A DNA stretch of 64,000 nt, from assembly GCA_021432635.1 (NCBI GenBank), contig MU270051.1, positions 186,001-250,000 on the forward strand. Direction: 5' to 3'. Made by a program: the position numbers and the translations under genes. Shown here in pieces: positions 33,228 through 61,103 of the stretch. Source of the DNA: Thozetella sp. PMI_491. Taxonomy: Eukaryota > Ascomycota > Sordariomycetes > Chaetosphaeriales > Chaetosphaeriaceae. Under the pieces are notes generated by a model that searched no databases, was not told where the DNA came from, and was given only the letters and a program-made list of their open reading frames with translations. Numbering within the stretch: position 1 is the first letter of the stretch; the number at the start of each line of letters is the position of its first letter.

Positions 33228-34658
33228 ATGGGCGCCGGCCAAGACGAACACACGTCGCATAACCCGGTATCGCTCGTCGGCGCGAGCTCACACTCATCTC
33301 AGTCGGTCCCATTATGGACACCAGTCCGCAACGATGATGGCGATGAGCCCGTCCCAGAATACACCGAGTGTCAAGATGATGGGTGGGCAGAAGCCCTAGC
33401 TGCTCTTCGCGAGAACAGCGCGGTCCTCGAGCTCCCGATTCTCCGCTGGCCGGACTTTCCAGCAGATGCCGACGGCCGGGAGCAGTACCAACTCGCCTCG
33501 GACATCATCACCTCGTTCTACCGCTCTATAGATGCGCAAAACACCGAGGCCGTCGCAGCTCTGATCCACCAGGGCCTTGTGTCACCCGATGTCACCGACA
33601 GACATGGCGCAACCCCCCTTATCGCCGCGGTGCAGACGGGTCATGCAGGTGTCATCCGGGCCCTGCTCCAGCTTGGCGCCGAGGTCGACGGGTTTGGCAC
33701 CACTCCGGAGAAGCTGCAGCGCCCCGCCCGTACCCCTTTGCAGGTCGCTGCCAGGGATGGAAATTTGGTCGTGGTGAAACTCCTCAGAGAAGAGTTTGGG
33801 GCCGACGACGCGATAATCGCCCCGGACGGCCAGCTCGCTCTCCGGCTAGCGGCGGAAAACAAACACCGAGAGGTCGTCGACTACCTACCAGTAAGACGGG
33901 GTGGCGAGTTTCGTCGCTGGAAGGCCCACCACGAGGTTGCCCTCCGAAGGTGTAAACTCGCAGCGCGGAAAGTCGGCTTCGCTCTGAAGTGCATCTTCTG
34001 GTATCTGCCCAAGCTTATCGTGTGGTGGCTTCCAAAATACTGCATATTTATCCCGCTTAAGAAGTCAGCAAAATGGGCGTGGAAGAATCGAGACAAGTTC
34101 AAGGGTTGGTGCAAGCGTCAAGTGGTCGAGTTTCCTCGGAGAGTGAAGAAAGCGGCAAAGTCCACTTGGGACGCCATCAAGAAGGTCCCTAGTGCGACCC
34201 GCAGGCTGCTTGGTGCCATAATAAAGGCACTACCTCGTGCCGCCAAGGCTGTCGGCCTCTGGATCTGGGGGTTTCTCAAGGCATTTGGCCGTGCTTTGGG
34301 GTCCGTCGCCAACCGAACCGTCTCTTTCCTGCACACCGCCGTCACCGCGATCGCGACCTTCTTCCGCGACCTCACCTTGCAAGATGTTTGGAACGGACTA
34401 CGCGGTATCCTCGCAGCGGTTTTTATTGAAGTTCCAAAGACAGTCTGGGGACTAATAAAAGACCTTGGAAATGTAGCTTACAAGGTACTGGACGAGCTCG
34501 TCGGAGATCTTGGGAAGTTTCTGTGGCTATTAGTAGGGGCACTTCTCTGGTTAGCCAAGTACATACCAGAGAAACTGGCAGAGATGGTGGCTAGCATTGG
34601 CAGCTCTGTAGCCAAGGGCGGTCACGAGGTTCGGGTCTGGGTCAACCCAAAGGCGTGA
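33228..34658 (+). CDS. Ankyrin-repeat protein with tryptophan-rich, amphipathic C-terminal tail
   Basis: Single exon, 476 residues. Residues ~100-220 carry three ankyrin-type repeats (DRHGATPLIAAVQTGHAGVI; ARTPLQVAARDGNLVVVKLL; a third, degenerate). From about 222 to the end the protein changes character: 15 tryptophans in about 250 residues, spaced in cationic/aromatic helices such as WYLPKLIVWWLPK, KWAWKNRDKFKGW and LWIWGFLKAFGRAL. Several hydrophobic stretches could insert in or lie on a membrane. No catalytic motif is present. The ankyrin part suggests protein binding and the tail suggests membrane attachment or pore-like packing; both are inference. No named family is recognised for the tail. 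Confidence 0.85.
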   Translation: MGAGQDEHTSHNPVSLVGASSHSSQSVPLWTPVRNDDGDEPVPEYTECQDDGWAEALAALRENSAVLELPILRWPDFPADADGREQYQLASDIITSFYRSIDAQNTEAVAALIHQGLVSPDVTDRHGATPLIAAVQTGHAGVIRALLQLGAEVDGFGTTPEKLQRPARTPLQVAARDGNLVVVKLLREEFGADDAIIAPDGQLALRLAAENKHREVVDYLPVRRGGEFRRWKAHHEVALRRCKLAARKVGFALKCIFWYLPKLIVWWLPKYCIFIPLKKSAKWAWKNRDKFKGWCKRQVVEFPRRVKKAAKSTWDAIKKVPSATRRLLGAIIKALPRAAKAVGLWIWGFLKAFGRALGSVANRTVSFLHTAVTAIATFFRDLTLQDVWNGLRGILAAVFIEVPKTVWGLIKDLGNVAYKVLDELVGDLGKFLWLLVGALLWLAKYIPEKLAEMVASIGSSVAKGGHEVRVWVNPKA

Positions 34659-34826
34659 GATGGCCTCCTGAATCTTGCACCAGGTAAACTCTTTTAATAC
34701 AACTATGAAAATATCTACAATCCATCTGGCTTTTACAACCCTAACTTTTCAAGTGAGAAAAGCGGATTATGAGCGAGACACATCCTGCCAAATACCGGGG
34801 ATCGGTCGTAGTAGAAAACAAACTTG

Positions 34827-35703
34827 TCAGGCATGATCACCTTTGTTGATGTCAGGCGGCAAGTGTTCCCCGGGCTGGTCATCACACAAGCACAGGGTGT
34901 CATGGGACGCGAAATAATCGCGCCCGTAGCAGATAAAGAGTTGCTCACCTGGTTGGATGTCCCGGTTGGCTACAAAGAGTATTAAGTTGCGCTTTCCAAC
35001 AGAGGTAGACAAGGCCGTCACATTGGGCTTGCAATGGGAGTTGACGAACCGCGTCCAGTTTCCCAACCTGTTAGCATCAACGTCATAGACACTTGGCGAC
35101 CCGGAGAAGGTGTAGAGCCCGTAGTTGACTCCCGGCGGCCGAAGCACACCCAGATACTCACCCAGATGCTCCCCTTTTGGTATCAGCTTGCTGGGGCGAG
35201 CAAAAACTCCATATCCCAACTCTCCTACACGCCTGATTTCAACGAGATTGCTCTTACCGCGGAGAAACGACGCCTTGAACGCTTTGTAGCAGTCATAGCT
35301 GCAATTACCGGCTCGGAAATTCAGAGGTTCGGAACAGTGCGTGCACGAGACTATGTTGCCGCGCTCAAGTCTGGGCCGGAGCAGCCTACATAGCAGTACT
35401 TGATCTATTTCATCCAGACGGTTAGCATGAAGTTGTGTATAAGGGAAAGAATACTGGAAAGTGGACGGGGAGCTGTGGATATTCGGGAAAACAGAACTGC
35501 CTAGGGGGGGGCGGGAGGGGGGAGGACTCACTCGTTAGCTTGTTTCTTGGAATTCCCCTAAGAGCTCTATGCCCAGAAAACTCTGCAGGGTCGGCAATGT
35601 GGTCAGCTATTTTACGGGGCATAGGGCCTCGTTGTGTTGCCCTGATTACGTGTTTTCTCGTCCTACGCTCATCCCACGCCTTGAACGGAGGGTATTTCGC
35701 CAT
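34827..35703 (-). CDS. Small SET-domain protein (putative lysine methyltransferase)
   Basis: Exons (minus) 35703-35532 and 35404-34827 give 249 residues. The N-terminus is basic and followed by a CTHC..CSYDCYKAF cysteine cluster. The SET domain spans about residues 130-225, with GYGVFA and GEYLGVL at its start, NWTRFVNSHCKPNV (the NH motif region) and GEQLFICYGRDYF (the GEE/Y motif). A short post-SET-like CLCDDQPGEH follows. The intron was placed by phase and by a TGCTAAC branch point shortly before the acceptor at 35405; other acceptors break the frame. The intron contains a long C-tract after the donor. The start is the first ATG in frame; an additional upstream exon cannot be excluded. The methylation target is unknown. 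Confidence 0.83.
35504..35522 (+). other. G-run cluster inside the SET-gene intron
   Basis: Runs of 8, 3 and 6 G separated by single bases. The transcript (minus strand) therefore carries a C-tract directly downstream of the donor GTGAGT. Confidence 0.65.
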
Positions 35704-37045
35704 GTAAGCCAAAGACCGCAGGATCTCTCACCTACACAGCAGACCCGCTGGCTTCGATAGCGGCGCAGGAGCTAAAACAAGACGTTTCCGACACGAATCA
35801 CACGAGTGATGATCCCGTTTGGTGTGCCAGGAAAATATCTGAACTTCGACTACAGTCAATGAGTTGGGATCTTCCTCGGCGAGGTCTCAGCATATAAGAG
35901 CAATTTTAATTCCAAAGAGGTATGTTTCAATCTATTGTCTTTGATTCTTAAGTGCCAATATGGCAGGGGATTGTTATGGATTGGACTTAGTGAAAGACTT
36001 TGGAACAAAGGATGCACTCCCTACCGCCCTGACGGTCCTTGAATACCTTCTTAAGCGAGACAAAAGATCTAGTGTCACTTCTTTATTCGCCTTTTCAGGT
36101 CACTAAAAAAAAGTTGGAGAAATAAAAGTAGGCAGTGTACATAGGTACTTCACTATTTCTCCAAGGCTGGAAATTAGGTAGAGACCAACAGGTCGGGATA
36201 GGGAGGACATTCTGGTGAATAGTTATCAGTATTAGCCAGCCTCAAAGTCACCCGCTCGTTCCTGCAAGAGTGACGTAAATTCTATCTGAGTACAGCGTAA
36301 AGGTAGGATAGACTTCGAACACAGTCCCTTACCAGAATGAACTACAAGTGGATATCGACCCAAACAAAACCGTGCGTGAATGGATATGCTGAAGCCTCAC
36401 GCAAGACAATTGCAACGTATTCATCACCGTTCAAGGTGAGCAAGAAGCAAGCTGGATTTCCATGGATAACCGGCTGTCTTGTTTGTTTCTCGTATTCATC
36501 ACTAAAGCTATAAAGCAAAGCCCGAGATCTCGTGCGGTCAGCCCATTTTGTGATCTTACATTAAACTAGAAGACGAAGATAGTTCTATAAATTCTAATTC
36601 GGTTGTCATTTTTGCACTAAATTGAACCCACTCGGAGTGAAATTCTTAATAGAAAGAGAGGTACCGAACTGGCGACTCCCATAAAAGACACGGCCAACCT
36701 TAGCTTTAGCAGTGCTTATCAGTTGAAATAAGCGCCAACTCCTCTCGCATCACTACACCGAACCCGCCGACCAACTATAAAGACATGAAATTGTAAGTAA
36801 AGATGAACGAGGGACCCGCGCGTCTTTCTATCAGAATACCAGCATGTATTCGGGTTAACTGAGCCGTAAAAGACAAGAACTGGACTTGGAAATCTGGAGA
36901 AGAGGCCAACCTCGACGTGAATCGGGTAATAAGACGTCTATCGGGAAGACTCAATATCCAGAAGTACTAGATCGTGCTAACATGTCGTTCATAGGCGTAG
37001 AGACATACAACCAGAGAGGGAAGGCTCTTCCTCACGAAGTTCAAG
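35704..37045. other. AT-rich gene-poor region
   Basis: About 1.3 kb with lower GC than its surroundings and no intact gene. The open frame at 36886-37137 overlaps the HicA-like gene in another phase and could be an exon of it or chance. No terminal repeats or transposase motifs were recognised. Confidence 0.5.
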
Positions 37046-37444
37046 ATGAAGAAGCAAAAGAACAAGACAAGAGAGCAGGCCTCGTCGAGAGGAAGTGGAA
37101 CAATAAAAAGAGAGAAAACCTCTTGCGACAGATATGACAGACAGGGACAAGATGCGACCGAGAAGATAGTGCTATGCGAAGACAACTATGCCTTGGCCGA
37201 GCAGATGTTTCCGCTTCCGGGAGAGTTCCGTGGCAAACGAGATGCAGGTGTCCCGTGGGCACGGTTCGTGGATTTCCTCTCCGAAGCTGGATTGACCCCG
37301 AACCACAACGGTGGGTCGGCTGTGTCATTCAAGACAGCGGATGGGAAGGAGACCATTGTATTTCATCAGCCGCACCCTAGCACCGTGATTAACCCGGTAA
37401 TGGTGCTCTCTTTGGGCAAGCGGCTGCAGAAACGATTCCTCTAG
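37046..37444 (+). CDS. Small protein with HicA/YcfA-like (dsRBD-type) C-terminal domain
   Basis: Open frame of 132 residues. About the last 85 residues match the layout of a recurrent filamentous-fungal domain resembling bacterial HicA/YcfA: WARFVDFLSEAGLTP, then HNGGSAVSFK, then TIVFHQPHP and a final INPVMVLSLGKRL helix. In bacterial HicA the Gly-Ser-His motif carries the catalytic histidine; here the equivalent position reads Gly-Ser-Ala, while a downstream FHQPHP keeps histidines. The first ~40 residues are Lys/Arg-rich and look like low-quality coding sequence, so the true start or an upstream exon is uncertain and the copy may be a fragment. RNA binding is inferred from the fold; nuclease activity cannot be claimed. 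Confidence 0.6.
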   Translation: MKKQKNKTREQASSRGSGTIKREKTSCDRYDRQGQDATEKIVLCEDNYALAEQMFPLPGEFRGKRDAGVPWARFVDFLSEAGLTPNHNGGSAVSFKTADGKETIVFHQPHPSTVINPVMVLSLGKRLQKRFL

Positions 37445-38327
37445 GAAAGAGAATCGTTTGTACAAAGAGAATCCTCAAGTATATAGCACGGAGAGAATCG
37501 AGAGCATATCTCGGACATGCACGTACTAGCTCCGTGTTTTTCGCGATTGTCGGCAGGAGATTCTCCCTATCGACGACAGTCCACCTCCGTAGAGACAGCG
37601 TCAAGAAATATCGGATATGATGGAGAGTGCCGTGATTTTAGCCACAGCAAGGTTTTTTCTGCTTCCATCCGAGTTCGGCAAGGCACACTGGACAAATGTT
37701 TGCAGAGAGGGACGATATTGCAGCCCAGGACCACACATTCTTAGCCAACATGGAAGAAAGGCTTTCGTCGTCCGCACAGAAAACCCAAAGTGCTGCAGGG
37801 GGGCCAGTCTAAGGTGAGGTAGGCTTTCGAACTCTATAGCTTAGCTACCTGGATTTGGCATGATCGAGTGGGGTGCTATTTATTGAGGTTCTCAAGCCGA
37901 CTCATCAAGGTTCTCAATCTCGCCTACGATGTGACCTTCAACGGGTGGGTATGCTCACCAGCGGCCTGGATCCTAGTAAGTTTAAGGGTCTAGGTGGATA
38001 GCCGTGGAAAAATGAAAATCTTGCTAGGGAATGCCGAGGATTGGAATACAGCCAATGCCTTTGCTGGGATTACCTATCAACTACCGCCGAAAGTGCGACG
38101 TTATACGCCAGCAGCAAGCCGGCCGAGGGGTGACAGCCAGACTAGGGACGACACGTGCCCTGAGATAGTACTTCGAGGGGTGAGATCAACTCAGAGGCAA
38201 CTCTAGTGCCCTTTCTTCTTCTTTCTTTTTCATTCTATTCTGTGATCTTACCGGCATTCTGGATCTGTCCACCACTTTCTCCTGTTCGCTCCACAGAAGA
38301 CCGGGCGCCCAGATCCCTGACTCAACC
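37445..38327. other. Intergenic region
   Basis: No supported gene. It includes the promoter side of the amino-acid permease, with a C/T-rich stretch (38212-38230) shortly before its start. Confidence 0.5.
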
Positions 38328-40180
38328 ATGAACCACTCGTCAACAGGCGGCCCGTCGGCCGCTTTCGAGGCACTGGGGACGAAGCATGGTACGAGAAACG
38401 AGGGTTCTGTGGAAGATGACGCAGAGATCTTGTCCGCGACCTTTGACGAGATCCGGCAGGTCAAGCAGGGACTGCACCAGCGGCACATCCAGATGATAGC
38501 CCTCGCAGGGACCATTGGGACCGGGCTTTTTCTTGGATCTGGGAAGGCTATTGCGACGTCCGGTCCCCTCGGAGCTCTGCTCAGCTACCTGATTATGGGC
38601 ATCGCATCGGGTAGCGTTGTGTTGGCCATAGCTGAGATGGGCGCGTTAGTGCCACTGAGCGGTGGCATTGTGCGATATGCAGAGTTCTTTGTTGACCCAG
38701 CATTGTCCTTTGCTGACGGCTGGAACTTGGTGTACTCCTATGTGGTTTCCATACCTGCCGAGATTGTGGCCGCGTCCGTGCTCGTCCAATTCTGGATCAC
38801 GGTATACAATGCCATCGTGAGTTGCCGGACAGCAGGGCCGACCCATGGCGGCCAGATACGAGTGCTGAGAACCTTGCTAACTTTTCGCTCCCTCTTCCCT
38901 TCAAGTGGATCACCCTGTTCGGTCTCGTCATGATCGTCAGCGCCTGGTTCTTTGTCAGAGTCTACGGCGAGCTCGAGTTTACTTTCTCCATGCTCAAGAT
39001 CGCGCTGGTGGTGCTGGTCAATCTTGTTGCCCTAGTCATCGCGTGTGGCGGTGCACCGAACCACGAGCCAACAGGGTTCAAATACTGGGTGTCACCGGGC
39101 CCATTCGTTCAATACTTGGGATTGGGAGGTTCTCTCGGGCGTGAGTAGCCAACGCTCTATCATGCCGCACTTCATCTTCACCCCAGAGACTTGGGATGTT
39201 CGAGCCTTCTACATGCTCCTTGCTAACCAGCCGTCACCCGTTCATCAGGGTTCCTGGGCTTTTGGAAGACGCTTAACAATGCTCTTTATGCCTACAGCGG
39301 CATAGAAAATATCACTCTCGCCGCCGCCGAGACGCGCAGCCCACGCCAAGCCATTCCGCAAGCAGCCAAGCGCATTTTCTGGAGGATCCTCATCTTCTAC
39401 ATCGTCACCATCTTCATGGTCGGTCTGGTGGTGCCTTCTGACAACGAAAGGCTGCTGCGGTCAACGGGGACGGCATCCCAGTCTCCCTTTGTGATCGCTG
39501 CCGATATTGCTGGTATACAAGTGGTGCCTCACATCATTAATGCCATCGTTATCACGTCCGCTTGGTCTAGTGGTAACAGCTCCCTACTGGGTGGATCGAG
39601 AACGCTGTACGGCATGGCTAGGCATGGCCGTGCACCGCGCTGCTTTACTCGTATAAATCGCTTTGGCATCCCGTATGTAGCTGTTACATTCTACGCCGTA
39701 TTCATGGGCTTGGGATACATGACGTTGTCGTCATCAGCAGCGACCGTATTCGAGTGGCTCCAGGACCTTGTGTCCATCTCTACACTGGTCAACTTTATTG
39801 TCATCCTCATTACTTACCTTCGATTTTACTACGCCTGCAAGACCCAGGGCATCGATCGTCAGGCTGAGCTCCCGTGGGCCGCTCCTTTCCAGCCTTACAT
39901 GTCCTGGGCGGCACTGGGCATGTTCCTGCTCCTGCTTCTGACCTCAGGCTTCTCGACGTTCATCAGCGGCCACTGGAACACCGAGTCTTTCGTTTCATCA
40001 TATTTCAATATACCCCTGATATTGATCTTGTATTTCGGCTACAAGTTCACCATGAAGACTAAGATCGTTCCGCTATCGGATGTTCCTATCCGTCAGTTTA
40101 TCGATATCGCCAACCGATATCCCGAGCCGCCTGTGAAGCGAGCGCGAGGCATTAGGCGTCTGAACATCTTATGGTCCTGA
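38328..40180 (+). CDS. Amino-acid permease (APC superfamily, fungal AAT family)
   Basis: Plasma-membrane amino acid/H+ symporter. Exons 38328-38816, 38906-39140 and 39249-40180 give 551 residues. The N-terminal cytoplasmic tail leads into RHIQMIALAGTIGTGLFLGSG, the hallmark first helix of the family. Twelve hydrophobic segments follow, with the conserved EMGALVPLSGG, AYSGIENITLAAAE and SRTLYGMARHGRAP blocks. The C-terminal tail is short. Substrate specificity is not predictable from sequence. Both introns were placed to restore the family helices WITLFGLVMIV and GFWKTLNNALYAYSG. A likely polyadenylation signal AATAAA lies at 40392. Confidence 0.93.
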
Positions 40181-40658
40181 CGCCTTGACCGAGGTGTATA
40201 CCCTGTCTACATGGCAGAAGTGTTGGGAGAAACACGCCGAGAGCGGTGCCTGCAGACCAGCGAGCCTAGGTGAGTGTGTGCACTTAGAAGGCTCCAGAGT
40301 CATTTAGCCTGGCGTTCTCATCTAGAAAGACTCTAAATGGACTTCATACTAGCAGTGCGGAGGACCAGGTGTGGGTGTACTGCCACCTAATAATAAAATG
40401 CAGTACAAAAAAAGCATATAAAATGGAACGTAGATTTCGCCTTGGGTATAGAGGAAGGAGGTACCTGGGACGAGGGAGGAGGATTAGCAGAGCCGTTGGG
40501 GCATTCAGGGGCAGGCAGAATCAATCAAGACAAGTCAGCTGACTTGGCGTTGCGGGGTTACGAGACGCGGCCGGCCCGTTCGCGACGTCATGTCTTCCAT
40601 CTCCAGCTTCTGCCTTGCGGTCGATCCTTCAGCTTTCTCGGGCGCTGTCGGACTCAAC
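40181..40658. other. Intergenic region between permease and SRAP gene
   Basis: 3' flank of the permease with an AATAAA at 40392-40397, then the promoter of the SRAP gene. Nothing else is seen. Confidence 0.5.
40392..40397 (+). terminator. Probable poly(A) signal of the permease gene
   Basis: AATAAA about 210 bases after the stop codon at 40180, in AT-rich sequence. Confidence 0.4.
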
Positions 40659-41972
40659 ATGTGCGGAAGGTACTCACTCGCGCTGGTATGTGTATTATCT
40701 TAGTCTGCCCCCCTTGCGCGCCGAGAGGCTGGGGCTTTGTTGAATATGTAAACTGACTTGGGGACCAAGCGAATGTCGCAGGTCCGGCGGCTGCTTGAGC
40801 AAGACGACATGGTGGTGGACGAAGCCCCCGAAGATGAAGCAGAGGGATCGCCACGACAGACTCACAACTTTGCTCCTGGGTACAACGGCATAGTCTATCG
40901 CGCCGATGTGCCAGACTGGGGTGCCGGGCCTAGGAGACAAGACGCGGCAAGAAGCAACGACAATGACACTCTACAGGAGGAAGCGGCGGCAGCCCAGGCA
41001 TCTTCCCAAGCCACCACTCAGGGTGACACCCACTACAAGCTGCAATCCATGAAGTGGGGCTTGATCCCGTTCTGGACCAAGCGCAACCCTGACTACGCCT
41101 CCATGCTAAAGACGATCAACTGCCGAGACGACTCGCTCGCTACGCCGGGCGGTATGTGGGCGTCGATGAAGGGCCGCAAGCGCTGCATCGTGATTGCCCA
41201 GGGATTTTACGAGTGGCTCAAACCCCAGGGCTCCAAGGAAAAGATCCCGCATTACATCAAGCGCAAGGACGGCAAGCTGCTGTGTATGGCTGGCCTCTGG
41301 GATTGCGTCCAGTACGAAGACGAGCAAGAAGGCCGCAAGAGCTACACCTACACCATCATAACTACCGACAGCAACGCCCAGCTCAAGTTCCTCCACGACC
41401 GGATGCCCGTCATCTTGGAGCCTGCCTCGGAGGCCATGCAGACATGGCTCGATCCCGCGCGACACGAATGGTCCTCGGAGCTCCAGCGGCTGCTCAAGCC
41501 CTACACCGGAGAACTTGAGGTCTATGCAGTCAGCAAGGAAGTTGGGAAGGTCGGCAACAACTCGCCCAACTTCATCATCCCCGTGGCCAGCAAGGAGAAC
41601 AAGAGCAATATAGCCAACTTCTTCGCTAAGGGTGCTAAGAAGAATGAGATGAAGCACATGGACGCAAAGGTCGAGGCGAAAACGGAGGTTAAGATTGAGG
41701 GCGGTGAGGATGCCGCTGTGCAAGCGGAGGATGGAGGCAGGGTCGAGACCCCCGTCGGGATCAAGCGACAGGCGACAACCTCGCCGGCACAGGAGCCGCC
41801 GCCGGTCAAGAAGTTGGCCACTCCATCGCCCTCGAAGCCGTCCGTAATGGAGAAGCAGGCGGCTCGGAAGCCGATTAGTGCTACTAGAAATGCCGCCAAG
41901 AGTCCGGCAAAGAAGAAGGTCACAGAGGCCGGAAGTCAGAAGATTACAAAATTCTTTGGAGGCAGTGCCTGA
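40659..41972 (+). CDS. SRAP/HMCES-type abasic-site processing protein
   Basis: SRAP proteins cross-link to abasic sites in single-stranded DNA through the N-terminal cysteine exposed after Met removal. Exons 40659-40685 and 40770-41972 give 409 residues. The nine-codon first exon supplies MCGRYSLAL, placing the catalytic C2 at the very N-terminus; without it the protein would be inactive. Further active-site residues are E157 in GFYEWLKP and H218 in FLHDRMPV. A ~50-residue acidic/Ala-rich insertion follows the first helix. After about residue 290 the tail is Lys/Glu/Pro-rich and ends SQKITKFFGGSA, which resembles a PCNA-interacting PIP box with Ser in place of the usual Gln. Confidence 0.93.
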
Positions 41973-42270: not shown

Positions 42271-45200
42271 CTATGCAGCCGTTCCGATCTCCTCCAGATG
42301 CTTTGCGTACTCCTCGGGGTACACTTCTTGAATGTACTTCATATACTCGATAGGGTCAGGGGACACGCACTAGGGCATGCGGGTCAGCATTCTGAACTTA
42401 ATAAACCGCAATTTCAGGTTTTGCAAGCCGCCGGGGGTACTCACCGCGGAGAAATCCTTGCTCACGTAGACGCAGCTGTATGGGCTCTGGCAGGTGAAAC
42501 TGCCTCCCCAGGTTTTGCCGCCGCACTGCTGCCCATACGCAATGGGCCTCGGAGCGGGAAGCGACAGGATCTTTTGCGAAGCGTGCTCGGCGGCAATCAC
42601 GATCATGGCCGAAGGGTTGCCCGTGGGCATACCAGGGAAGATGGACGCGTCGACGACGAAGAGGTTGTCGGTACCGTAGACCCGGGCGTTCAAGTCGACT
42701 ACAGACGTGCCGCCAGTACGACCGTCATCGGTGCCCATCTTGGCGGTGCCCATCCAGTGGTTGGAACGGCGGCTTCCAGGGGAAACGGGGAGCTGGGCAT
42801 GGGAAGATTAGTGACACGGGGACTAGCCATCTATCTGGTGGTACGTCTTACCGAGTCCACAAAGCTCTCGACGGACTGGTTCGCCTTAGGCTTGATCCAT
42901 GTCAGATTCTGAACATGGGACAGCGCTTCCTTCACATTCTTGATTCCTTGAATGACGGCCTCCTTGTCGAAATCGTTGTGAAGGTAAGGATGGAGCGACA
43001 CCTCCATGGACAGGCTTGGGTTGATGGTCGTCCTGCCTCGCGAAACAACGCCGCGACCTAGATACTGGCTCATGGTCATAGAGACTGTCACTACATTAGA
43101 AACTTGGCTCTCTCAATTGACTGCCAGCCGATCCAAACTCACACTTGGATGGATTGACGTTGTCATCGCCTTCGACTCGCGAGGTCCACTGTAGTTGGCG
43201 GACAATACCGTCTGATCCTTTGATTTCGTCCCAGATCTAAATATGTTAGCTGCTTGTCAATTATAACGGATCTGGGTGTCTAAATAATACCATTGGGCCA
43301 ATGTTGGGGGCTGCCTGCGCCAGAATGCCTGTCCGGTTCTGAAGGTAGCTATCCTTGTCCGACTCGATCGGCTTATCCCAAGCGGCATAGAAATCGTAGA
43401 ATGAGACGTTGGGGTGGGCGATGATCAAGTCTGTATTGAGGTGATCCATGAGGTTGTACCCGACAGGGAGGTCAATCCAATTAGTCCTGGGCGTCAAGAC
43501 GAATCCATCCTCGAACGAGGTCCGGACGGTCTCTATCTGGTCCGTCGGTCCGATGCCGCCTTAAATCGTGTTAATCCGTGCAACTTGCATGACACAAATG
43601 GGACCTAGGGGGCGAGGAGTCAACTTACTCCGCATGAGAATTCTTGCGGTGCCGAAAGTGCCTCCAGCGAGTATCACTCGTCCGGTGCCGTTGGTCACGC
43701 TGATCGAGCCGGTGTAACCCTCAGGTATGCAACCAAGCTCAACGCCTGTGATATGACCGCCCTCGCGCGTGAGCCTCTTCACCTCGGTGTTTGTAAACAG
43801 CGTAAATTGCTTCCTCCGATGTGCGCTCACCAAGTAGGTAGCTAAGGGGCCGCCTCGCTCGCCGTTCGAGTACATGTAAGTGGTATGGCCGTACGTCCTG
43901 TTCTTGAGGGTAGGATTGTCATTCGGTATAAGGTACGAGTATCCTGACGAGTTGAGACCGGATGCGATCACATCGAAGCCTTCCTGTTTGTAGAGCTGAC
44001 CGTCCATCGAAGGGTGCCAAGTCCCAGGTATGCGTTCAAACACCCGCCTGGTTGCGTCGGCGACATCGGTGCTCCTCCAACCAGCAGGGAAGTTGTAGTC
44101 CCAATCTTTCGGGTTTGGCTGCAAGAAGGTAAGCCACGGTATTCTTGAACGGACGAGACTGAAGTCGATATCGAAAGCCTTACCTTCCACCAGAGACCGG
44201 CATTCACGGCAGTCCCTCCGCCGAGAACGCAGCCTTCCATCTGGTCTGTGTCGGTGCAGGCGATTCCGGTCGAGTCATGCCAGATCTGATTGGCCAAGCC
44301 CGGGACATCGAAACGGGTCAGGTTCGTGCCTTGAAGCCACTGGGGCTTCATGGTTCCGTTCCAGCGGCCAGTAGACGGCGGGCCGCGCTCAAGCAGGAGA
44401 ACGCTCTTGCCTGCCTGGCTCAGCTTGTCCGCGATCGGGATACCAGCTGCTCCAGCGCCTACTACAATGTAGTCGTATGTCTTATTATCGGGGGCTAGAG
44501 TACACGTCGGCGTCGGCGTCTCAGGCGTAGATGGTCCGGTCGGGGTTGCGACGGGTGTGCTAGTTGTCTTGGGAATCTCGGTTCTAAAGAGGCAGCAGTT
44601 AGTCGATGTCTAGGTCACAATTCCTCCTGTCCCTTTTCTTGTCTCCTTATTCTTCTATTATGCTCTTCTGTGGCAGCGGAGACGAACCGCGCTCGCCACA
44701 GGTCGTCTTCCCATGTATGGACATTCTGGGGACACTCACATGTGATCACAGTCGGTCGCTACCGTCTTAGTTGCAAGGGCAGCCCACGCAGAATAAGAGG
44801 TGTGGGTTGCGTTATCGAGCTGGGCGCCGTACTGTCCATATCCATGGTCGTGGAAGCCAAATGTCATCTTATCCGGGCATTGGGCGTTGTACGGGCCTCG
44901 TTTGGCTGCAGCACGCCCCATCAGGAAGAACTTGGAGCTGGTAGAAACCTTTCCGGTTGCCCCGTTCTGGTTCCAAGAAAAGCAGTTCTGGCACCGATAG
45001 ACCAGCTCCCACATGGTCGCATTTACAAAAGACGAGATCTGGGTCAACGTGGCGTTTCCGGTATAGACGGGCGGCGTCTGGTAGCCGGGTGTGTAGCGGA
45101 AAGACGTGTAAACCTCTCCATTGTAAGGCCAGGCCATGAGAAGCAGCGAGCTTGTCATCTGTCCGGAAGCGCCGTGGGACAGGCCGCACCAACCAGTGTT

Positions 45201-45576
45201 GTTCACATTTGTGATGGAGCACCGCTATTTCGCCGTTGTCAGCTTCGCCCGCGGATGCCGAGAATATCTCCACCTACCATGATACCAATGTACTCGTTGG
45301 CATCGGTGGTCAGGGCCGTCTCGGGGAGAACGACGCCCCATGTGTAGTCGGTCTGCTCAACTGAATCTGGGTCCACGTTGGGTTCGGTGTACCATGTTTG
45401 GAACTGAATACCACTGGTCTTCTCCGTGTAGTTCCCCGAGAGCATCTGGGCCGCGGCGCCTTGGAGACCTTTGCACTTGTTAGAGAACACTCGAAGGGCA
45501 ACCATTGGTGGCAGCCGGTAGACTCACATAGCGCCGCCGTAGCGACAGCGATGCTAACCCTTCTGAGTAGCGTCAT
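42271..45576 (-). CDS. cdh: Cellobiose dehydrogenase with cytochrome, GMC and CBM1-like modules
   Basis: Secreted flavocytochrome that oxidises cellobiose and passes electrons to AA9 LPMOs. Ten exons (minus): 45576-45528, 45468-45278, 45224-44740, 44583-44184, 44118-43629, 43559-43291, 43236-43143, 43090-42852, 42792-42445, 42369-42271; 887 residues. Signal peptide 1-23. The cytochrome domain has likely heme ligands M103 (SGQMTSSLLLMAW) and H221 (LDNATHTSY). A Thr/Pro linker occupies 243-268. The FAD motif is VVGAGAAG (282-289). Catalytic residues are H751 (RRSNHWMG) and N798 (PTGNPSAM). A CBM1-like module (825-856) has cysteines 829, 840, 846 and 856. After the last cysteine there are 31 extra residues ending EEIGTAA. 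This is the ascomycete class IIA architecture. It is divergent from the AA9 gene at 47546. Confidence 0.96.
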
Positions 45577-47545
45577 GTTTCCGTGGAGTCCAGGACTACG
45601 AGTATGGGCGTAGAACTACAAAACAAGACAAGACCGGGGGGAGGAAGAAGGGCCTTCAGGGACAAGGGGGAAGCATATAGCATCGAGAGGCATCACGGCA
45701 GCATCCACAGATGTGCCTGGGCATCTCGCATGTCAGTGCCATTTGCTCCACCTTCCAGGCACAAGTCACGGAACAAAGATCCGGCCCAGATACAGAAGGG
45801 GCCGGTACGAGGGACAGCGCGACGGACGGAAAGCTACGACATGGGGACAGTAAATTGACGGGCCTGGATGCAGTATGGTTCCCGCCCACCAGCATATAAA
45901 ATGGCAATGCTGGAAAAAATTAGAGGCAGAAAGGAACGGCTTAGCAGTGAGGGGCACTGATAGATTGGAGAAGTCACCATGGAAGGAAAATGTCTTTGTC
46001 ATGCAGGTCCGCCAACACGTGCGCAAATTGCCGCGAGGCGGAAAGACGGACGCCATGGCAGGCGGGACGCAGGGGACTAGCATGCCCCAAGGCCCCGCAA
46101 CCCCATCGTCCGGCGCAGACGGGGCGCCGGAAGAGGTGCTCTAGTAGCGCTCGCCATAGTTCGCCAAGCCAAGGCCGCTTGAACCTCGATGTTCGGCAAC
46201 GCTGAGCAGCCCAGTCGCGGCATTTTGGGAAACGGTCTTGGCGAGCGAGATTCGCACCCTTCAGCCACCCCACTTGTCGACCCTTCCGTCGCACCGCTGT
46301 AGGAACCTGGCCTGCCATCTTCTCACACCCGGTGATTGACAGCACGACACGGCAGTGTCATGCCGAGAAGGTAGGGCCAGTCCAGATCCTGGCCCCTCCA
46401 CACACCGGAAACTCGGAACGAATATTCCTATCCTAGTGATTGAGGGGATGCGAAAACCTTCTCAGCGGGCGGAGCCCCTTGCCTCTCTTGCGGGAGCAGC
46501 GAGGACGCGTGGAAGGAGCGTGTCTCCGTCCATGGAGAGGGAGGCGCACGATTGAGCCATTGGCCAATGGCCCATCTAGGCAAGCAAGGTGCTAAGGCAA
46601 GGGCGATCTGGCCCAGCACCATCCTCTCTTCCCTCTTACTGGCTGCTCAGCCATGGTAGCCTTCTGATTGGGCGACTTACAGCCTCGGTGGACCCCGGAG
46701 GCTAACTTCGCGCTTAATTTGACCTGTACTTTGGATAAATAAGGAGCCAGCAACATGCCTTCCCCTTTCCCCATGCAACATCCAACTACCCTCCATATCT
46801 GGCAGTGCGGGCTGCCCGCTCAGCAAAGCTTCCGCAGCCAAGCACCTAGCTCCCGTCCGGATCAGGCTGTAATGGGAGGGGCCTAGCATCTACGGTCCGG
46901 CGGGCCAGTACCGGGCGACCTTGTGGTCAGCATCACGCGTCTCTCTCTCCATTCGCCTCGCTCGGGACAGCGGGCACCCACGTTCCCACCGGTGGAACCG
47001 AACAGTTCATCCATCCAACGACACCAGCACAGATAGAAGGTGGTCTCCCAAAGTCCCGATGTGTGGCTTGTACAGTACATACGGCGTGGGAATACGGCGA
47101 AGAGGCACTTGCAGCTGTTGTACTTTCCACCGCCACTGCACATGACGGCCCGCCTGTGGCGCGGGGTCTTCTCTTGATCCGGGGGCTTCTAGAAGCTTGA
47201 GGCTCTCCGTCTTTTAGTCTCATGGGGTAATCACCTCACCTTGTTTTCTGTTTTCCTCTTTCGGCGCGGCCGCGGCCCCTCCGCCCTTTTCTCGGCCTTC
47301 TCAATGTCAGTGGTCAGAAACACGAAGACTTCATTGAAGGTGATACTCTGAAGGTCATTGCGACGGCCATGGAATAGTTTAATAGCTCGCAAATGTAGTA
47401 TATCACCCAAGCCTGAGCTTCTACTCTTCTTGAGCGGCCCTGTTTCCCGTGCAACGTTTTTATCTTGTAGAGGCAAGACGTCTCGGTTGCTCCTATTCCG
47501 CTTTCGCAATCGTTCCAGATAACTTGGTAGGACTAATCAATCGCC
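45577..47545. promoter_or_regulatory. Divergent intergenic promoter region between CDH and AA9 LPMO
   Basis: About 1.97 kb separates the two start codons. Visible candidates are a TATA-like ATATAAAA at 45894-45901, a GGCTAA word (Xyr1/XLR-1-like) at 46700-46705 and a CGG-N5-CCG palindrome at 46990-47000. Open frames here (for example 45974-46345 minus) show no protein similarity. Shared regulation is inferred from the divergent arrangement and the enzymes' common role. Confidence 0.5.
46990..47000. promoter_or_regulatory. CGG-N5-CCG site, candidate zinc-cluster (CLR-1-like) operator
   Basis: The inverted CGG triplets with five-base spacing fit Zn2Cys6 factor sites such as that reported for the cellulase regulator CLR-1. 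Such a word is expected by chance about once in 4 kb, so this is only a candidate. Confidence 0.3.
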
Positions 47546-48597
47546 ATGAAGCCCTATTCGGCACTGATAGCTGTGGTCTCGCTGTCCATGGTGTCCGGCC
47601 ACACGATATTCGTCCAGCTTGTGGCCAGCGGTCAAACCTATCGTACTAGCCCCCCACCCACTCAGGAACCGGGATGGTGGCCTGGCTGACAGGAAGATGT
47701 AGCCATCAAATACGGCATCCGAGACCCTACTTACGATGGCGTACGTTCACCGACGCGCTATCTGACTAGACTATCCCTAATACTCTTTTAGCCTCAGACA
47801 GATGTCAGCTCCAAGAATATGGCATGCAACGGCCCACCGAACCCAACCACTCCCTCTGACAAGATCATCCCGGTCACTGCTGGCACGAACGTCACGGCTG
47901 TGTGGCGCCACACTCTCGAATGTTAGTGGTACCGCCCCCTTCGCCGGCAGGCAAACGGAACTGACTCTGGAGCAGCTGGAGCCAACGACGTCATGGATGC
48001 CGGACACAAAGGACCGGTCATGGCCTACTTGAAGAAGGTAACCGACGCGAAGTCTGACCAAGGTGTCGGTTCTGGATGGTAATATCCCCGGGAACCGTAA
48101 CGAGATCGCGAGAACGCGCTAAGAGACTGACCTTTCACCAGGTTCAAGATCCAGGAAGGCGGGTACAGCAACGGTGTGTGGGCGACCAACGAGGTCATCA
48201 GCAATAAAGGGAACCATGTTATTCACATACCCGACTGCATCGAGGATGGCCAGTACCTACTTCGTGCTGAGATGGTTGCGCTCCATGGCGCAAGGTCGGT
48301 GAACGGGGCCCAGCTCTATGTAGGTACTGAGAAGTCGTGAGGATCTTCAGCTGCGGTTCTAATGGGGAAACAGATGGAATGCGCTCAGCTCAACATCACC
48401 GGAGGTACCGGAAAAGCCAAGCCGACAACTTATAGCATCCCTGGGATTTACAAGTCCAACGACCCGGGTCTCCTCCTCGACATTTATTCCCTAAAGTCCA
48501 ACTTCCAATACGTAATTCCAGGTATGTTAGCTCATTGGCCGAGTATGCAGAGCGCATCGCTAACTAGTACACAGGACCTCCCAAGTTCACTTGCTAG
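47546..48597 (+). CDS. AA9 lytic polysaccharide monooxygenase (first copy)
   Basis: Secreted copper enzyme that cleaves cellulose oxidatively. Exons 47546-47642, 47703-47740, 47792-47921, 47976-48078, 48142-48319, 48374-48521 and 48575-48597 give 238 residues. Signal peptide 1-18 ends SG, so H19 becomes the N-terminal copper-binding histidine ([11 protein letters not shown]). The second histidine brace residue is H99 ([12 protein letters not shown]), and the axial tyrosine is Y182 with Q180 (AQLYMECAQ). Disulfide cysteines are present, and the protein ends PPKFTC with no linker or CBM. The short exon 2 (38 bases) is required to restore [14 protein letters not shown]. The gene lies head-to-head with CDH and upstream of a second AA9 gene. 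Confidence 0.95.
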
Positions 48598-49459
48598 TAG
48601 TTCTTCGACGTTCTTGTGCCGAATTACTAGCCTATCGACGCAGGCCATGGCTGTGTACTCTACTCTATCCCTCCGCCTAAACTGGAGGAGAGAAGATCGA
48701 TAGAACTGAATCCTAGAAATATTATTAGTGAACACTGCTGAGGATGTTTGCATCTCAAAAAGTGAATACTAGGACAACGGGCAGTCGTTTGGTAGAATTT
48801 CACCTCGACACCGACCAGTTAGCCTTCCCCGGGAAGGGCCTCAAAGTACACTTCACGGCCAGCACACGAGTAGTAGGCATGTCGAGGTGCAATCGCGCCC
48901 AGAATATCGGCAGTCGTCATCCTGTGGCTGTTAGCTCGACCTTGTGAGACGGCTTTCGGGATTTGGCATCCCACTGCGGATTGGACACGGGACTACGGCT
49001 TCCACATGGGGTGCCGGCCTGATATTAAGACACCCGCACCACCCGCATTCAACCCCACACTCTTCTCGCATGGAGAGGCGCCCATTTGATATGCAATCTA
49101 GAGCGACGCAAGGCCTCATTTCATGCCAATTCCCATGAGCACATTTCCCTGGCTTGCACCCAAAGGTGGCCCACCCTCAGCACCCTAAGGCTTATTGTTT
49201 GTGCCCTCGAAGACCTGGATCCGTCCGAGAATGGGGCAGCGATCTATTCTATATACGCTCCAACCCGTCGTCGTGCGGCATTTGCGGCAAGTCGACATCC
49301 GGGAAGAGCTCTGCCGGGACCATTCTTAACCTTCGTGGCCGTCGCTTGGCGTATTCGAACCTTAGTCTTCAGAGAGAACGCCCTCGGAGACTAGATCGAG
49401 AACTACCAGAAATTGCCTACAACCTCACCATACCACTAGGCAGCTCTAACGGCAGCAAG
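48598..49459. other. Intergenic region between the two AA9 genes
   Basis: About 860 bases. A TATATA-like word sits near 49238-49245, about 215 bases before the second AA9 start. The open frame from 49154 is an upstream extension of that gene and is not supported as coding. Confidence 0.5.
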
Positions 49460-50309
49460 ATGAAGTTCTCTTCCTGCATCCTCGCCCTTTCTTTGGGAGT
49501 GGTGAACGTCTCAGGACACTATATTTTCCAGCAATTCGCACTGGCGAGCAAGAAGTTTGAAGTCTACGAGCATATCCGGCGCAACTTGAACTACAACTCA
49601 CCTGTGACAAGTTTGGCGTCGAAGGATCTTGTATGCAATGTCGGCGGTCTCCAGGGAACGAATACCACCACGGTCGACGCAAAGGCTGGGGATTCGTTTA
49701 GCTTCCACACAGATGTGGCAGTCTATCACCAAGGCCCGATCTCGCTGTAAGTCTGCTGGCCTGCTAATCAAGGTGTAAGACGCCGGCAGCAAAGCCTAAC
49801 GTGATTTTAGATATATGTCGAAAGCGCCGGGTGCAGCGCATGACTATGACGGCAGTGGGGACTGGTTCAAGATCTACGACTGGGGCCCGACCTTCAGCGG
49901 CGGTCAGGCGTCGTGGCCGCTCCGATGTAAAAGCCTTCCCCCAAGAATGGAGCAACATGTACTGATGAGAAGCAGCCGACTACACGTACCAGATTCCCAA
50001 GTGCATTCCCAACGGCGAGTACTTGCTACGCATCCAGTCCCTTGCCATTCACAACCCCGGCGGTACACCCCAGTTTTACATCAGCTGTGCGCAATTAAAC
50101 GTTACCGGAGGCGGCAACGCGACGCCCGGCCCGACCTGTAAGATTCCAGGCGCTTTCAAGGCAACTGATCCAGGATACACCGCCAATGTAAGTATTTCCT
50201 CGTGTCTTCCTCGTCTTGACGCCAGTCGGTGCTGATGGCTATACTACAGATCTATAACGGCCTCAAGTCCTACACGGTGCCTGGCCCAACCGTATTCAGC
50301 TGCTCTTGA
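49460..50309 (+). CDS. AA9 lytic polysaccharide monooxygenase (second copy)
   Basis: Secreted copper monooxygenase. Exons 49460-49746, 49811-49926, 49976-50187 and 50250-50309 give 224 residues. Signal peptide 1-19 is followed by H20 ([11 protein letters not shown]), the N-terminal copper ligand. The second ligand is H90 ([16 protein letters not shown]), and the active-site pair is Q167/Y169 ([10 protein letters not shown]). The protein ends in the common [11 protein letters not shown] motif, with one Ser after the last Cys, and has no CBM. It differs strongly from the neighbouring AA9 in sequence, intron number and intron positions, so the two are not a recent tandem duplication. The reading frame is open above the ATG, but the signal peptide fixes the start. 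Confidence 0.95.
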
Positions 50310-51699
50310 GAGCGATGTATTGTAGCGGAGGGGAAATTAGGTGTTCGCTTCCCTAGAAATGGCGTATTGTGGTCTGGTGTTCATAATTTTGGTCAATTTT
50401 AGACGACATTGATACTTGCAGTCTCGTACCGGTGCCGGGCCGGCGAGATCAGGGCAGGGAGCAGACAGCAGACCAGGGCAACCATTCCCCGGCTAGTCCT
50501 AGTAACCATCACCAACCAGTTAGCTATATTTAAGCTCGCGCATTAGTGTCAATTCTCTCTAGGTAGCTATCCAGAGGGTATGGCACGCTGCGCGAAATGA
50601 TCACGCCAGATTCGATTTAGTTAGCGCTCCCTGATGCTACCTAGTTATATTGCGTACGCTGTGTCTCCAACTTGTGCGCAGGAGACACAGGCCCGGAGGT
50701 CAGTTGATCCCAGTTTGTCTACCAGTCTCAATTTGGATGATTCCCCGCTGGCGTTCGGCGACCCATATCGCCTGTACCTCTCGAGATCTGAAATGGGTGG
50801 AGTTGTAACACGGAGGCTCCCCCAGAATCACATTGTCCACCGAGCGTCTCTTCCCCACGGGCTCGCACTTGATCGGCATTGATAGGCCACTGGCAATGCC
50901 GCTCCCCAATTTACACGGAGCCCTGCCGCCGAGACGCTGGGCCGCTTCTCCCTCCCCAACGGGCACAGCAGCTCGGCCACTCATGTTTATCCGTCCATGG
51001 GATCCCCGCAAAACGCCCCCTGCCTATTGCCCCGAGGCCTGTCAATCTGCGGCAAGGCTCTTGTAAGCGGAGGGCAAACGCCAACCCCTCGAGTCGGGAC
51101 TTGCAGCACACGGCTACACGATGGGCCGCCATGGCCGAAATTTCGCCTCTGCACTCGGAGAACCTGTTTAGTGTTCATGCTGCCTCCCCGCGTCGGCGGC
51201 TGCATGCTATGAGCTTCGTCTACGAATTTATGGTCGCTCGGCCTTGCCATATCGACGAGCCGACAACAAGTCATGCGCTACCTCCGAGGGAACGAATGAG
51301 GCTGCAGCTTTGGGGCCTGCCTCTTCCCGGGAGCTGCCAGAAAGCTTAGTTCGATTTCCGGGAACGGTAGCTCGGGCCTCCAAGCGCGGAAGCTGAGCAC
51401 AGGTACCTCATATGGGCCCGGATCTGCTGGATCCTCGCCCATCAGGGTCTCTATCTCGTAAAGGCACTTGCATAGTGCCAAATTGCCCTCCTAGCCATGG
51501 TTTCTTCCCGAGAGACAGTGGCGGAGACCAGCTTCCTCCTGGTCAATGTTGGATGCTCCGCAGGGTAGAGGATATAATAGCTAGCTAGAGCTCCTGCAGG
51601 TACACACTCTTGGCGGCCAACCTCTCTCCCCACCCTACCCTTGGCATTGTTTACTCTGTTCACACATCTCCCCTCGTTATTGGCGTCCAGAAAGTCACA
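50310..51699. other. Intergenic region upstream of GH5
   Basis: About 1.4 kb. It contains the GH5 TATA-like box at 51573. Other open frames (50833-51349 and its antisense) have no recognised similarity. Confidence 0.5.
51573..51578 (+). promoter_or_regulatory. TATA-like box of the GH5 gene
   Basis: TATAAT in the context GATATAATAG, about 125 bases before the ATG at 51700. Confidence 0.4.
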
Positions 51700-53270
51700 A
51701 TGCACACCTCTATCCTCTCCGTCATGGCCTTGGCCGGAACTGCCATTGCTCTGCCGCAAGCTGGCACTCTAGAGAAGCGGGCTGGCGTCCAATTCCGTAA
51801 GCCACCTTTCCCATTAGGCCCTCTCTTGAGCCTAGTTGGTGCAGATCAGTTCTGACGATTCTGCTTTTTGGGAAATAGGAGGTGTGAACATTGCCGGATT
51901 CGACTTCGGATGCTCCATCCAGGTATGCACAATGTGCCGCCGGACGCTGCAACGGTGCCAACTTGCTTACTGAAAAAAGGGTGCTTGCAATCTCACTCAG
52001 ACCACCCCGCCAGTCTCCAGCTTGGGTGGCATCGATGGGTAAGCATCTAGGCTGAACAGAAACATTGTTTCATGGGTCTGCATACTGACAAGCTCATAGA
52101 ATCGGTCAGATGCAGCACTTCTCCAAAGACCTTGGCATGAACATGTTCCGGCTTCCGGTTGGCTGGCAATATCTGGTCAACAACCAGCTCGGCGGGACTC
52201 TAGATGCTTCAAACTTGGGCAAATATGACCAGCTGGTCAAGGGCTGTCTCGCCACAGGAGCCTACTGCATTATTGATGTAAGTGATTGCATTGCCTCCTT
52301 GCAGCATTCGCTGGCCGGCTATGGCTGACAGGATCTAGGTTCACAACTGTCCGTGTCCAATATTCCCTCCCAATCCTATCAACTTTGATGCTAAATATCG
52401 GTAGATGCGCGGTGGAATGGCCAGATCATCGGCCAGGGCGGGCCGACCAACGATCAATTCGTCAACCTGTGGACCCAGCTCGCCAAGAAGTACGCATCTG
52501 AGGCAAAGATGGTCTTTGGCATTATGAACGAGGTGAGAGAATGCCATACCAGTATCTCCAGATTAACCGGTCGGTGGACTGACACAGATTCTCATAGCCC
52601 CATGATGTTCCTGATATTAACAAGTGGGCGGATACTGTGCAGGCTGTCGTCACGGCTATCAGAGGCGTGGCGAAGTCACAAATGATACTTCTTCCGGGGA
52701 ATGACTGGACCTCTGCCGCAGCTATGCCCACCAAGAGCGGCCCCGCCCTTCTCAAGGTCAAGAACCCAGATGGGTCGACTGACGGTCTCATCTTTGACGT
52801 CCACAGTAAGCAATGCACGGGGATGTTTGGGAGGGGCTGTAGCCTGCAAACTAGATCTAACAGGACCGCCTCTAGAGTATCTTGACTCGGACAACTCTGG
52901 AACACACACTGAGTGCGTCACCGACAACATCAGCTCCGCTTTCCAGCCCCTAGCCACCTGGCTGAAGACCAACAATCGTCAGGCTCTCAACAGCGAGACC
53001 GGCGGCGGAAACACTGCCTCGTGCCAGAAGTACTTGTGCGCGCAGCTGCAGTTCCTTGAGTGAGCCACGCCCAGCATATAGTCTTCTCCCATTGCCTATG
53101 CACGATTAACATTATTTCTTAGCCAAAACTCCGACGTTTTCCTCGGTTGGACCGGTTGGTCCGCCGGTGCATTCAACCCACAGACGTACGAGCTCAGCGA
53201 AGTCCCGACCAAGAACGGAAACTCATGGACGGATACTTCGCTCGTCAAGGCGTGCATGAAGAAGGCGTAG
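51700..53270 (+). CDS. GH5 (subfamily 5) endo-beta-1,4-glucanase
   Basis: Secreted cellulase cutting internal beta-1,4 bonds. Exons 51700-51796, 51879-51922, 51980-52038, 52100-52277, 52339-52348, 52405-52532, 52598-52805, 52876-53059 and 53123-53270 give 351 residues. Signal peptide about 1-17, then a short propeptide ending in the Kex2-type K26-R27. The catalytic core includes NMFRLPVGWQYL, DVHNYARWNG, the acid/base E172 (GIMNEPHD) and the nucleophile E282 (LNSETGGGN). No CBM1 precedes the core, unlike Trichoderma EG II. Exon 5 is a micro-exon of ten bases coding VHN plus one base; it is essential to restore the HNYARWNG motif. Confidence 0.95.
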
Positions 53271-59770: not shown

Positions 59771-61103
59771 GCATTCGCGGAAAACCTCGGTATTTTTTCC
59801 CCCTTTGGTCGTTACACTTTGTTCGCTCCACGGCGGTGAAAAGAAACAATAAAAGTTTTTGTATTATTAGAGGGTGTTCTATTAGGGTTGGATATGAGCG
59901 CTCCTCAGCGCGAGCACATTATAGTTATGCCGTAGTCATACTTTGCAGGCAGCAATGAAGCTAATGGCCGGTGAGGCCAGATCACGCACGTCTCGAATCG
60001 CAACACGTGGGCATGCCTGGCGAGTGGCTGTGGACCTCGGGACTCCGTGTATGGGTTGACATTTGTTATGGCGACGTTTGTGAGTAGAGCATCCTGTGTG
60101 CCTCGGTGACTTTAGCGATCTGGATGCTTCGAAGTTCGGCTAGCTCCTCTGCCAATCTAGGGTGTAAGAAGCGAAATGCGGTGGGTAACGGCCTGGTTGC
60201 ACTTCGACTAGTTCGTCGTCAAAGCTTTGACAGTGCTACCCTATCCTTGGAGTTTGGTTGGTCGGCTACCTACCAGCACTTCAGAGTATAGCTAGAGTAT
60301 AAAGTACTCCAGGTAACTATAACAAGGAAAGTAGCTGAGATGTCCAAGGTGGGATGTAGCCCAGGTATAGAGGTGCAGGCGGACGAACATGCACTTTGGC
60401 GGGAATAGCAGCGGAAATATTAGGCTGATCCTTTCCTCCTATCCCTTTCCTCTCTCCTTCATAACCGAACCGATCGGCTTGCTCGATTCCGGTCCCCGGG
60501 CAGGCAGGAAGGCAGACCAGGTCCTGCATCGCTGTCGGGACGGTCTGAGACCTCTCAAGCTCTTCTGGTTGACCGACAGCCCCGCCAGGCTGGTCTGCCT
60601 CGCCTAGCGCAATAAATATGCTGTAGTAAGGCGGGCTTTGGTGGTGGTGTGGCTGTGGGCGCCCAAATGGGCCCTAGCGATAGGCACCACACGACCATTC
60701 AGCTGTGGTCGTTGCCGAATGCAGCTTTAAAACCCAGGGCGCGGTGAAACGAATGAGGCTGCCATCACTTCCCCCCTCCCGCATGAACGAGGCTGGTTTC
60801 TACACCGAGGGACCGGAGTAGGCACGCGACATCACACCCATTGGAGGTCGCTTTCCCTCGCCGTTGTCGTTCTTTAATTGCTCACCGTCGGCACCTGGGG
60901 GATCTGAGAATCACTACAAAGAAATAAAAAAAGTTGAACTAAGGCGCGCGGCACGCAGCGCTTCGGGCCGGACAGCCAAAACCGCGAGAGATCCACTCCA
61001 GCATTCGGTCAGCAAATACGGGCGCACCGACGAGTGCGCGGTTCTTGTATTTTGGAATCGTGCTGCCGCCAGCCCTGAATCGCCTGCAGCGGTCCGCACA
61101 GTC
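59771..61103. other. Intergenic region upstream of the HET gene
   Basis: 3' flank of the SR-rich gene (AATAAA at 59848) and promoter of the HET gene. The HET frame stays open to about 60864 but contains no ATG before 61104. Confidence 0.5.
59848..59853 (+). terminator. Probable poly(A) signal of the SR-rich gene
   Basis: AATAAA followed by a T-run, about 80 bases downstream of the stop codon at 59770. Confidence 0.45.

Follow-up and report, generated by a model that had tools for sequence, protein, structure and literature searches.

Do neighbouring genes for cellulose-attacking enzymes in a fungal genome form a functional group, or have they come to lie side by side without consequence? The question is raised by a locus of Thozetella sp. 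PMI_491 (assembly GCA_021432635.1; 72.3 Mb in 157 contigs), located in a 64,000-nucleotide stretch of contig MU270051.1 (C37:186001–250000), hereafter the window. Here a cellobiose dehydrogenase (CDH) gene on the reverse strand is followed, on the forward strand, by genes for two AA9 lytic polysaccharide monooxygenases (LPMOs), AA9-1 and AA9-2, and for a GH5 endoglucanase (Table 1). The cluster spans positions 42271–53270, exactly from the stop of CDH to the stop of GH5. A sequence-only reading had proposed that a complete CDH stands head-to-head with an AA9 gene, that a second, divergent AA9 and the endoglucanase follow in the same direction with no other gene between them, and that the group functions as a small cluster co-ordinated by its divergent promoter. 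According to our analysis, the four intact-looking neighbours form a real cluster, and one that is unusual for this genome. Each enzyme is an ordinary representative of a known family; the new part is the linkage of CDH with AA9, of which the genome holds a second case.

We spliced the gene models by hand from the sequence, picking GT-AG sites by eye for reading frame and family conservation. All 26 introns across the four models begin with GT, end with AG and measure 46–156 bp, and each spliced coding sequence has a single stop, at its end; the genes are open and complete. For CDH intron 7 a GTGAGT donor was used, since the donor 2 nt earlier gives a frameshift with stops. The shakiest splices are the GH5 intron after the 10-nt exon 5 (donor GTCCGT) and AA9-1 intron 1 (donor GTACTA). 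Stops that fell inside profile matches at the cluster in the genome scan are intronic under these models, and Pfam confirms the family of each gene. The gene order put forward by the sequence-only reading stands, including the divergence of the second AA9: AA9-1 and AA9-2 are identical at 76 of 198 aligned positions (38%), which is too low for a recent tandem copy. Downstream of AA9-1 the spacers measure 862 bp (to AA9-2) and 1,390 bp (between AA9-2 and GH5). A subset of ten open frames situated wholly or partly in the spacers gave no Pfam match over the cut-off; a hidden gene was rejected on these frames.

Table 1. Positions of the clustered genes, the divergent spacer and its motif matches, numbered within the window
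Feature	Position	Strand	Description
CDH	42271..45576	−	10 exons, 885 aa; ATG end 45576; open spliced frame
Divergent spacer CDH/AA9-1	45577..47545	.	1,969 bp between the ATGs; matches only itself in the genome; six frames tested without a domain over cut-off
CGGN5CCG site 1	46808..46818	.	motif match
CGGN5CCG site 2	46990..47000	.	motif match
CGGN5CCG sites 3 and 4	47262..47283	.	abutting, in one GC-rich stretch
AA9-1	47546..48597	+	7 exons, 240 aa; Pfam AA9 187.8 bits; open spliced frame
AA9-2	49460..50309	+	4 exons, 225 aa; Pfam AA9 155.3 bits; open spliced frame
GH5 endoglucanase	51700..53270	+	9 exons, 351 aa; Pfam Cellulase 215.9 bits; open spliced frame

How unusual the grouping is can be judged from a profile scan of the genome, whose counts are lower bounds. 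The scan found at least 46 AA9 loci (71 matches merged), at least 77 GMC loci (85 GMC_oxred_C matches merged) and at least 21 CDH-cyt groups (31 matches); merging by hand gave at least 28 GH5 (34 matches), at least 10 GH7 (28 matches) and at least 3 GH6 loci (6 matches). Three full CDHs were counted, in the window and on contigs C29 and C119. Apart from this cluster the 46 AA9 loci are scattered: AA9-1 and AA9-2 are the sole pair less than 20 kb apart, no other pair being closer than 22 kb; with uniform placement on 72.3 Mb, 0.057 AA9–AA9 pairs would be expected within 2 kb. When 46 AA9, 3 CDH, 28 GH5, 10 GH7 and 3 GH6 loci are taken together as 90 points, only three places have two or more of them within 12 kb of each other: the window, C29 (AA9–CDH) and C31 (AA9–GH5, 8.7 kb). 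We rejected C31 as a cluster of the same kind, given the transcription-factor-like and beta-lactamase-like frames between its two genes. Uniform placement gives P 1.2e-4 for at least two of three CDHs having an AA9 within 5 kb, a criterion that holds for the window CDH when measured from its 5' end (the distance from its low end to AA9-1 is 5.5 kb). An AA9 lies within 50 kb of 5 of the 77 GMC loci and within 20 kb of only 2, both of them full CDHs; this corresponds to 2/3 full CDHs against 0/74 other GMC loci (P 0.001). On these post hoc tests with small n, the physical linkage exceeds chance expectation and looks non-random.

The second CDH–AA9 pair, at C29:29500-34320 (L001 and L026:1-4320 among our stretches), consists of an AA9 gene with CBM1 and, 1.4 kb on in tandem, a CDH with no CBM1 match. 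The closest solved relative of this AA9 is 5o2w, followed by a group including 2yet. The two pairs differ in CDH type, in AA9 type and in orientation (tandem versus head-to-head); their CDHs match only in parts, at ~34–36%, and their AA9s at ~30–40%. The low identities and differing orientation led us to reject a recent block duplication as the origin of both pairs, and the different enzyme types and orientation suggest that the association is independent or very old. A FAD_binding_4 gene (L026:4466-6166, −) lies tail-to-tail with the C29 CDH. It has many solved relatives, among them glucooligosaccharide oxidase 1zr6 at E 8e-19; as 1zr6 is not its best match, an AA7 label would go too far.

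The window CDH comprises a signal peptide (by eye), a cytochrome domain (CDH-cyt, aa 30-225, 193.6 bits), a GMC flavodehydrogenase domain (GMC_oxred_N, 356-579; GMC_oxred_C, 690-805), a CBM1 (CBM_1, matched at aa 825-848 with 27.5 bits against a cut-off of 20.6) and a C-terminal tail. It thus joins a heme cytochrome domain and a GMC flavodehydrogenase domain in one chain, as the family criterion has it. Its nearest solved relatives, 4qi7 and 4qi6, are both named cellobiose dehydrogenase and align to residues 29–848 (E 1e-298, near full-length) and 28–855, respectively. The protein carries the motifs GQMTSS at 101, FHDHGYG at 204, SNHWMG at 747 and PTGNPSA at 793; we take the first two to hold the heme Met/His ligands and the last two the GMC catalytic His/Asn. 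The enzyme is predicted to oxidise cellobiose and hand electrons to acceptors. It presumably belongs to class II, the CDHs with CBM1, and it shares the order cytochrome, flavodehydrogenase and CBM1 with CDHs of the 4qi7/4qi6 type. In contrast to known CBM1-bearing CDHs, it stands head-to-head with an AA9 gene and has ~30 extra residues after CBM1, which the last exon (window 42271-42369) adds beyond the final CBM1 cysteine. As annotated counterparts, rather than established orthologues, we propose NCU00206 of Neurospora crassa and Pa_7_2650 of Podospora anserina, which are paired as loci in the available part of PMC2441463.

Other CDH-like loci of the genome vary in completeness. The C119 CDH is 55% identical to the window CDH over a 298-residue stretch and, read without an intron, ends almost directly after CBM1, without the tail of ~30 residues. 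On C88 (C88:200004-201073; L028:8004-9073) a CDH relic is found, in which the cytochrome domain and the GMC end lie ~40 bp apart and ~430 flavodehydrogenase residues are missing; the C88 contig has no AA9 match. A cytochrome domain at C62:77934-78558 shares 56% identity with the one in the window CDH across 156 residues, and the contig has no GMC_oxred_C match; this gene possibly encodes a single-domain AA8 protein. At C3:359943-368434, a GH6 gene with CBM1 lies ~7 kb from a CDH-cyt gene.

Both LPMOs have His1 after a signal peptide (by eye). AA9-1 carries the motifs SGHTIF, GHKGP and GAQLYMEC, and AA9-2 carries SGHYIF, YHQGP and PQFYISC; we take these to hold the mature N-terminal His, the second copper His and the Tyr, present in both. 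The best solved matches of AA9-2 are 8b7p, 4b5q, 4qi8 and 3eii, the last three of which we assume to be C1-type; from these relatives AA9-2 is weakly predicted to be, probably, C1-type as well. Its closest paralogue lies at C104:108294-109112 (56-72% by exon), on a contig with no CDH-cyt match. For AA9-1, the genome comparison gave no paralogue match above 54%. Its nearest solved relative is 5foh, presumably NcLPMO9A (NCU02240), with 154 of 220 aligned residues identical (70%). NcLPMO9A and NcLPMO9D are given as C4-oxidising in the available part of PMC5987398. By its nearest solved relative, AA9-1 would thus be C4-type. Compared with the N. crassa C4-oxidising LPMOs (NcLPMO9A, NCU02240; NcLPMO9D, NCU01050), it has this 70% identity to 5foh in its favour; unlike them, it adjoins a CDH, and its C4 activity is a prediction from sequence. 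The fourth gene has GH5 motifs NEPHD at 171 and SETGGG at 281, which presumably contain the acid/base and nucleophile Glu. Its best solved match is Endoglucanase EG-II (3qr3, E 8e-142), a protein we take to be of GH5 subfamily 5 (GH5_5).

Regulation was approached through ten motifs in six stretches, about 60 tests. The divergent spacer contains four matches to CGGN5CCG, which we take to be the CLR-1-type motif; their distance is 273–738 bp to the ATG of AA9-1 and 1,232–1,697 bp to that of CDH. The whole spacer holds 4 against 0.77 expected (P 0.0088), and the 1 kb before AA9-1 holds 4 against 0.30 expected, a count reached in 0.06% of 5,000 shuffles (P 0.0006) for a 1-kb cut chosen once the site positions were known. 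The only other motif to stand out was CGGN11CCG before AA9-2, a weak excess of 2 sites (P 0.03). Neither excess is safe against about 60 tests, and broad co-regulation of the genes by a common motif was rejected. The kilobase on the AA9-1 side is the densest for CGGN5CCG within the window. As a control, kilobase windows were slid over 21 other stretches; 13 of 1,890 held at least 4 sites, all of them in stretches L032 and L033. In the upstream kilobases of eight AA9 loci, from the 44 outside the cluster, the motif occurs 2, 0, 0, 0, 0, 0, 1 and 0 times, the 2 belonging to the C29 AA9 beside CDH; these kilobases, like those compared for GH5 loci, stop 200–300 bp short of the first family match and only approximate the promoters. 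The sites suggest that AA9-1, though not necessarily CDH, is under a CLR-1-like regulator. In N. crassa, endoglucanase and AA9 genes have promoters to which CLR-1 binds, and CLR-1 and CLR-2 bind many cellulose-use genes, according to the available part of PMC5609067. Genes could thus, it seems, be induced jointly without being physically linked.

We favour, with some reserve, a small and real cluster of intact genes for secreted cellulose-degrading enzymes that would cooperate; the adjacency of CDH and AA9 looks non-random, and regulation is probably mainly trans-acting rather than exerted by a compact shared promoter. One polymer can be attacked both by GH5 endoglucanases and by AA9s. The endoglucanase would cut amorphous cellulose within chains, and the two copper monooxygenases, one C4-like and one probably C1-like, would cleave chains oxidatively. 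CDH, which has a cellulose-binding module of its own, would oxidise the released cellobiose or cello-oligosaccharides and pass electrons via its cytochrome domain to the AA9 copper. Transcription would probably be driven mainly by trans-acting cellulose regulators, through CLR-1-type sites near AA9-1, and selection for inheriting or expressing the partners together may maintain the CDH–AA9 adjacency. In other fungi, CDH is described as a direct LPMO reductant, reducing AA9 copper, and CDH/LPMO co-expression is reported (PMC5987398, available part).

Several points weigh against this interpretation. The splice models were drawn from the genomic sequence, and co-expression of the four genes is a prediction. 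The linkage tests were made after the cluster had been seen and draw on two pairs and 3 CDHs; the third full CDH, on C119, has no AA9 match on its contig, and counting the C88 relic gives 2/4 CDHs with a nearby AA9. CGGN5CCG is absent from the kilobase upstream of CDH, AA9-2 and GH5. Kilobases rich in the motif are not confined to AA9 genes (L033 and L032, by the C62 cytochrome gene, reach 6 and 4 sites, respectively), and the upstream kilobases of eight GH5 loci hold 0–2 sites, one locus reaching 2.

Cellulase genes could also have been brought together by relocation, each regulated in trans, so that their grouping would be without any function. We consider such neutral adjacency possible, though clearly the less probable account: CDH–AA9 adjacency occurs twice in the genome, whereas none of the 74 GMC loci other than CDHs has an AA9 within 20 kb, and it is the existence of a second, differently built pair that makes the adjacency look non-random. 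Somewhat more doubtful still is a true bidirectional promoter co-ordinating CDH and AA9-1 from the spacer between them. The head-to-head arrangement and the four CLR-1-type sites inside the spacer speak for it, and a precedent comes from Colletotrichum and Magnaporthe, where a peroxidase and an alcohol oxidase gene are paired head-to-head (PMC9770985, available part), whereas the spacer is long, all four sites lie on the AA9-1 side, two cluster genes stand outside it, and the nine other motifs tested show no enrichment in it. The linked grouping claimed by the sequence-only reading holds, with the only AA9 pair under 20 kb and two of three CDHs near an AA9, while its co-ordinating promoter emerges weakened. 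An assembly misjoin that brought unrelated genes together is very improbable, and nothing in its favour came to light: a search with the divergent spacer found it to be single-copy, the window contains no N, and the locus lies well inside a 664,661-bp contig. GC content at third codon positions is 0.66-0.70 in the four genes, like the 0.64-0.73 of three flanking frames; this too speaks against a misjoin, and it gives no sign of horizontal transfer.

Outside the cluster, the left flank (window 28144-41972) is housekeeping-like, with genes for an RNA polymerase Rpb1-type subunit, ankyrin, SET, an amino-acid permease and SRAP, the last tail-to-tail with CDH. To the right lies a HET-domain frame at 60822-61730. 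One of the three GH6 loci found, C37:183178-184193, precedes the left edge of the window by ~2 kb; its distance to CDH is 44 kb.

We found no description of CDH–AA9 adjacency in the open-access literature searched. The Podospora CDH Pa_0_280 may stand next to an AA9 numbered Pa_0_270, which the literature search did not confirm. Known clusters of polysaccharide-degrading genes resemble this locus in having such genes side by side; as far as the available descriptions go, they contain no CDH–AA9 pairing. In the accessible account of Phlebia radiata, the single CDH adjoins a putative catalase gene, unlike the window CDH beside AA9. The Colletotrichum and Magnaporthe pair likewise consists of two secreted redox partners placed head-to-head, yet its enzymes are different and, in the text available (PMC9770985), its arrangement is conserved across species, whereas that of CDH and AA9-1 is known here from one genome.

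AA9 LPMOs can number in the dozens in a fungus (46 loci in this genome), against few CDHs, which raises the question of which CDH donor serves which LPMO. We tentatively raise the idea, doubtful as it stands, that CDH–AA9 linkage is a recurrent selected feature, which would have arisen two or more times in this genome, involving CDHs that carry or lack a CBM1 and different AA9 groups (C4-like head-to-head; CBM1-bearing C1/C4-like in tandem), and that it marks true donor/acceptor partners. If linkage does mark partners, it would yield a short testable list and could predict which of the ~46 LPMOs each CDH serves. The locus itself offers a compact natural set for reconstitution assays, made up of a CDH, a putative C4-type LPMO, a probable C1-type LPMO and an endoglucanase.

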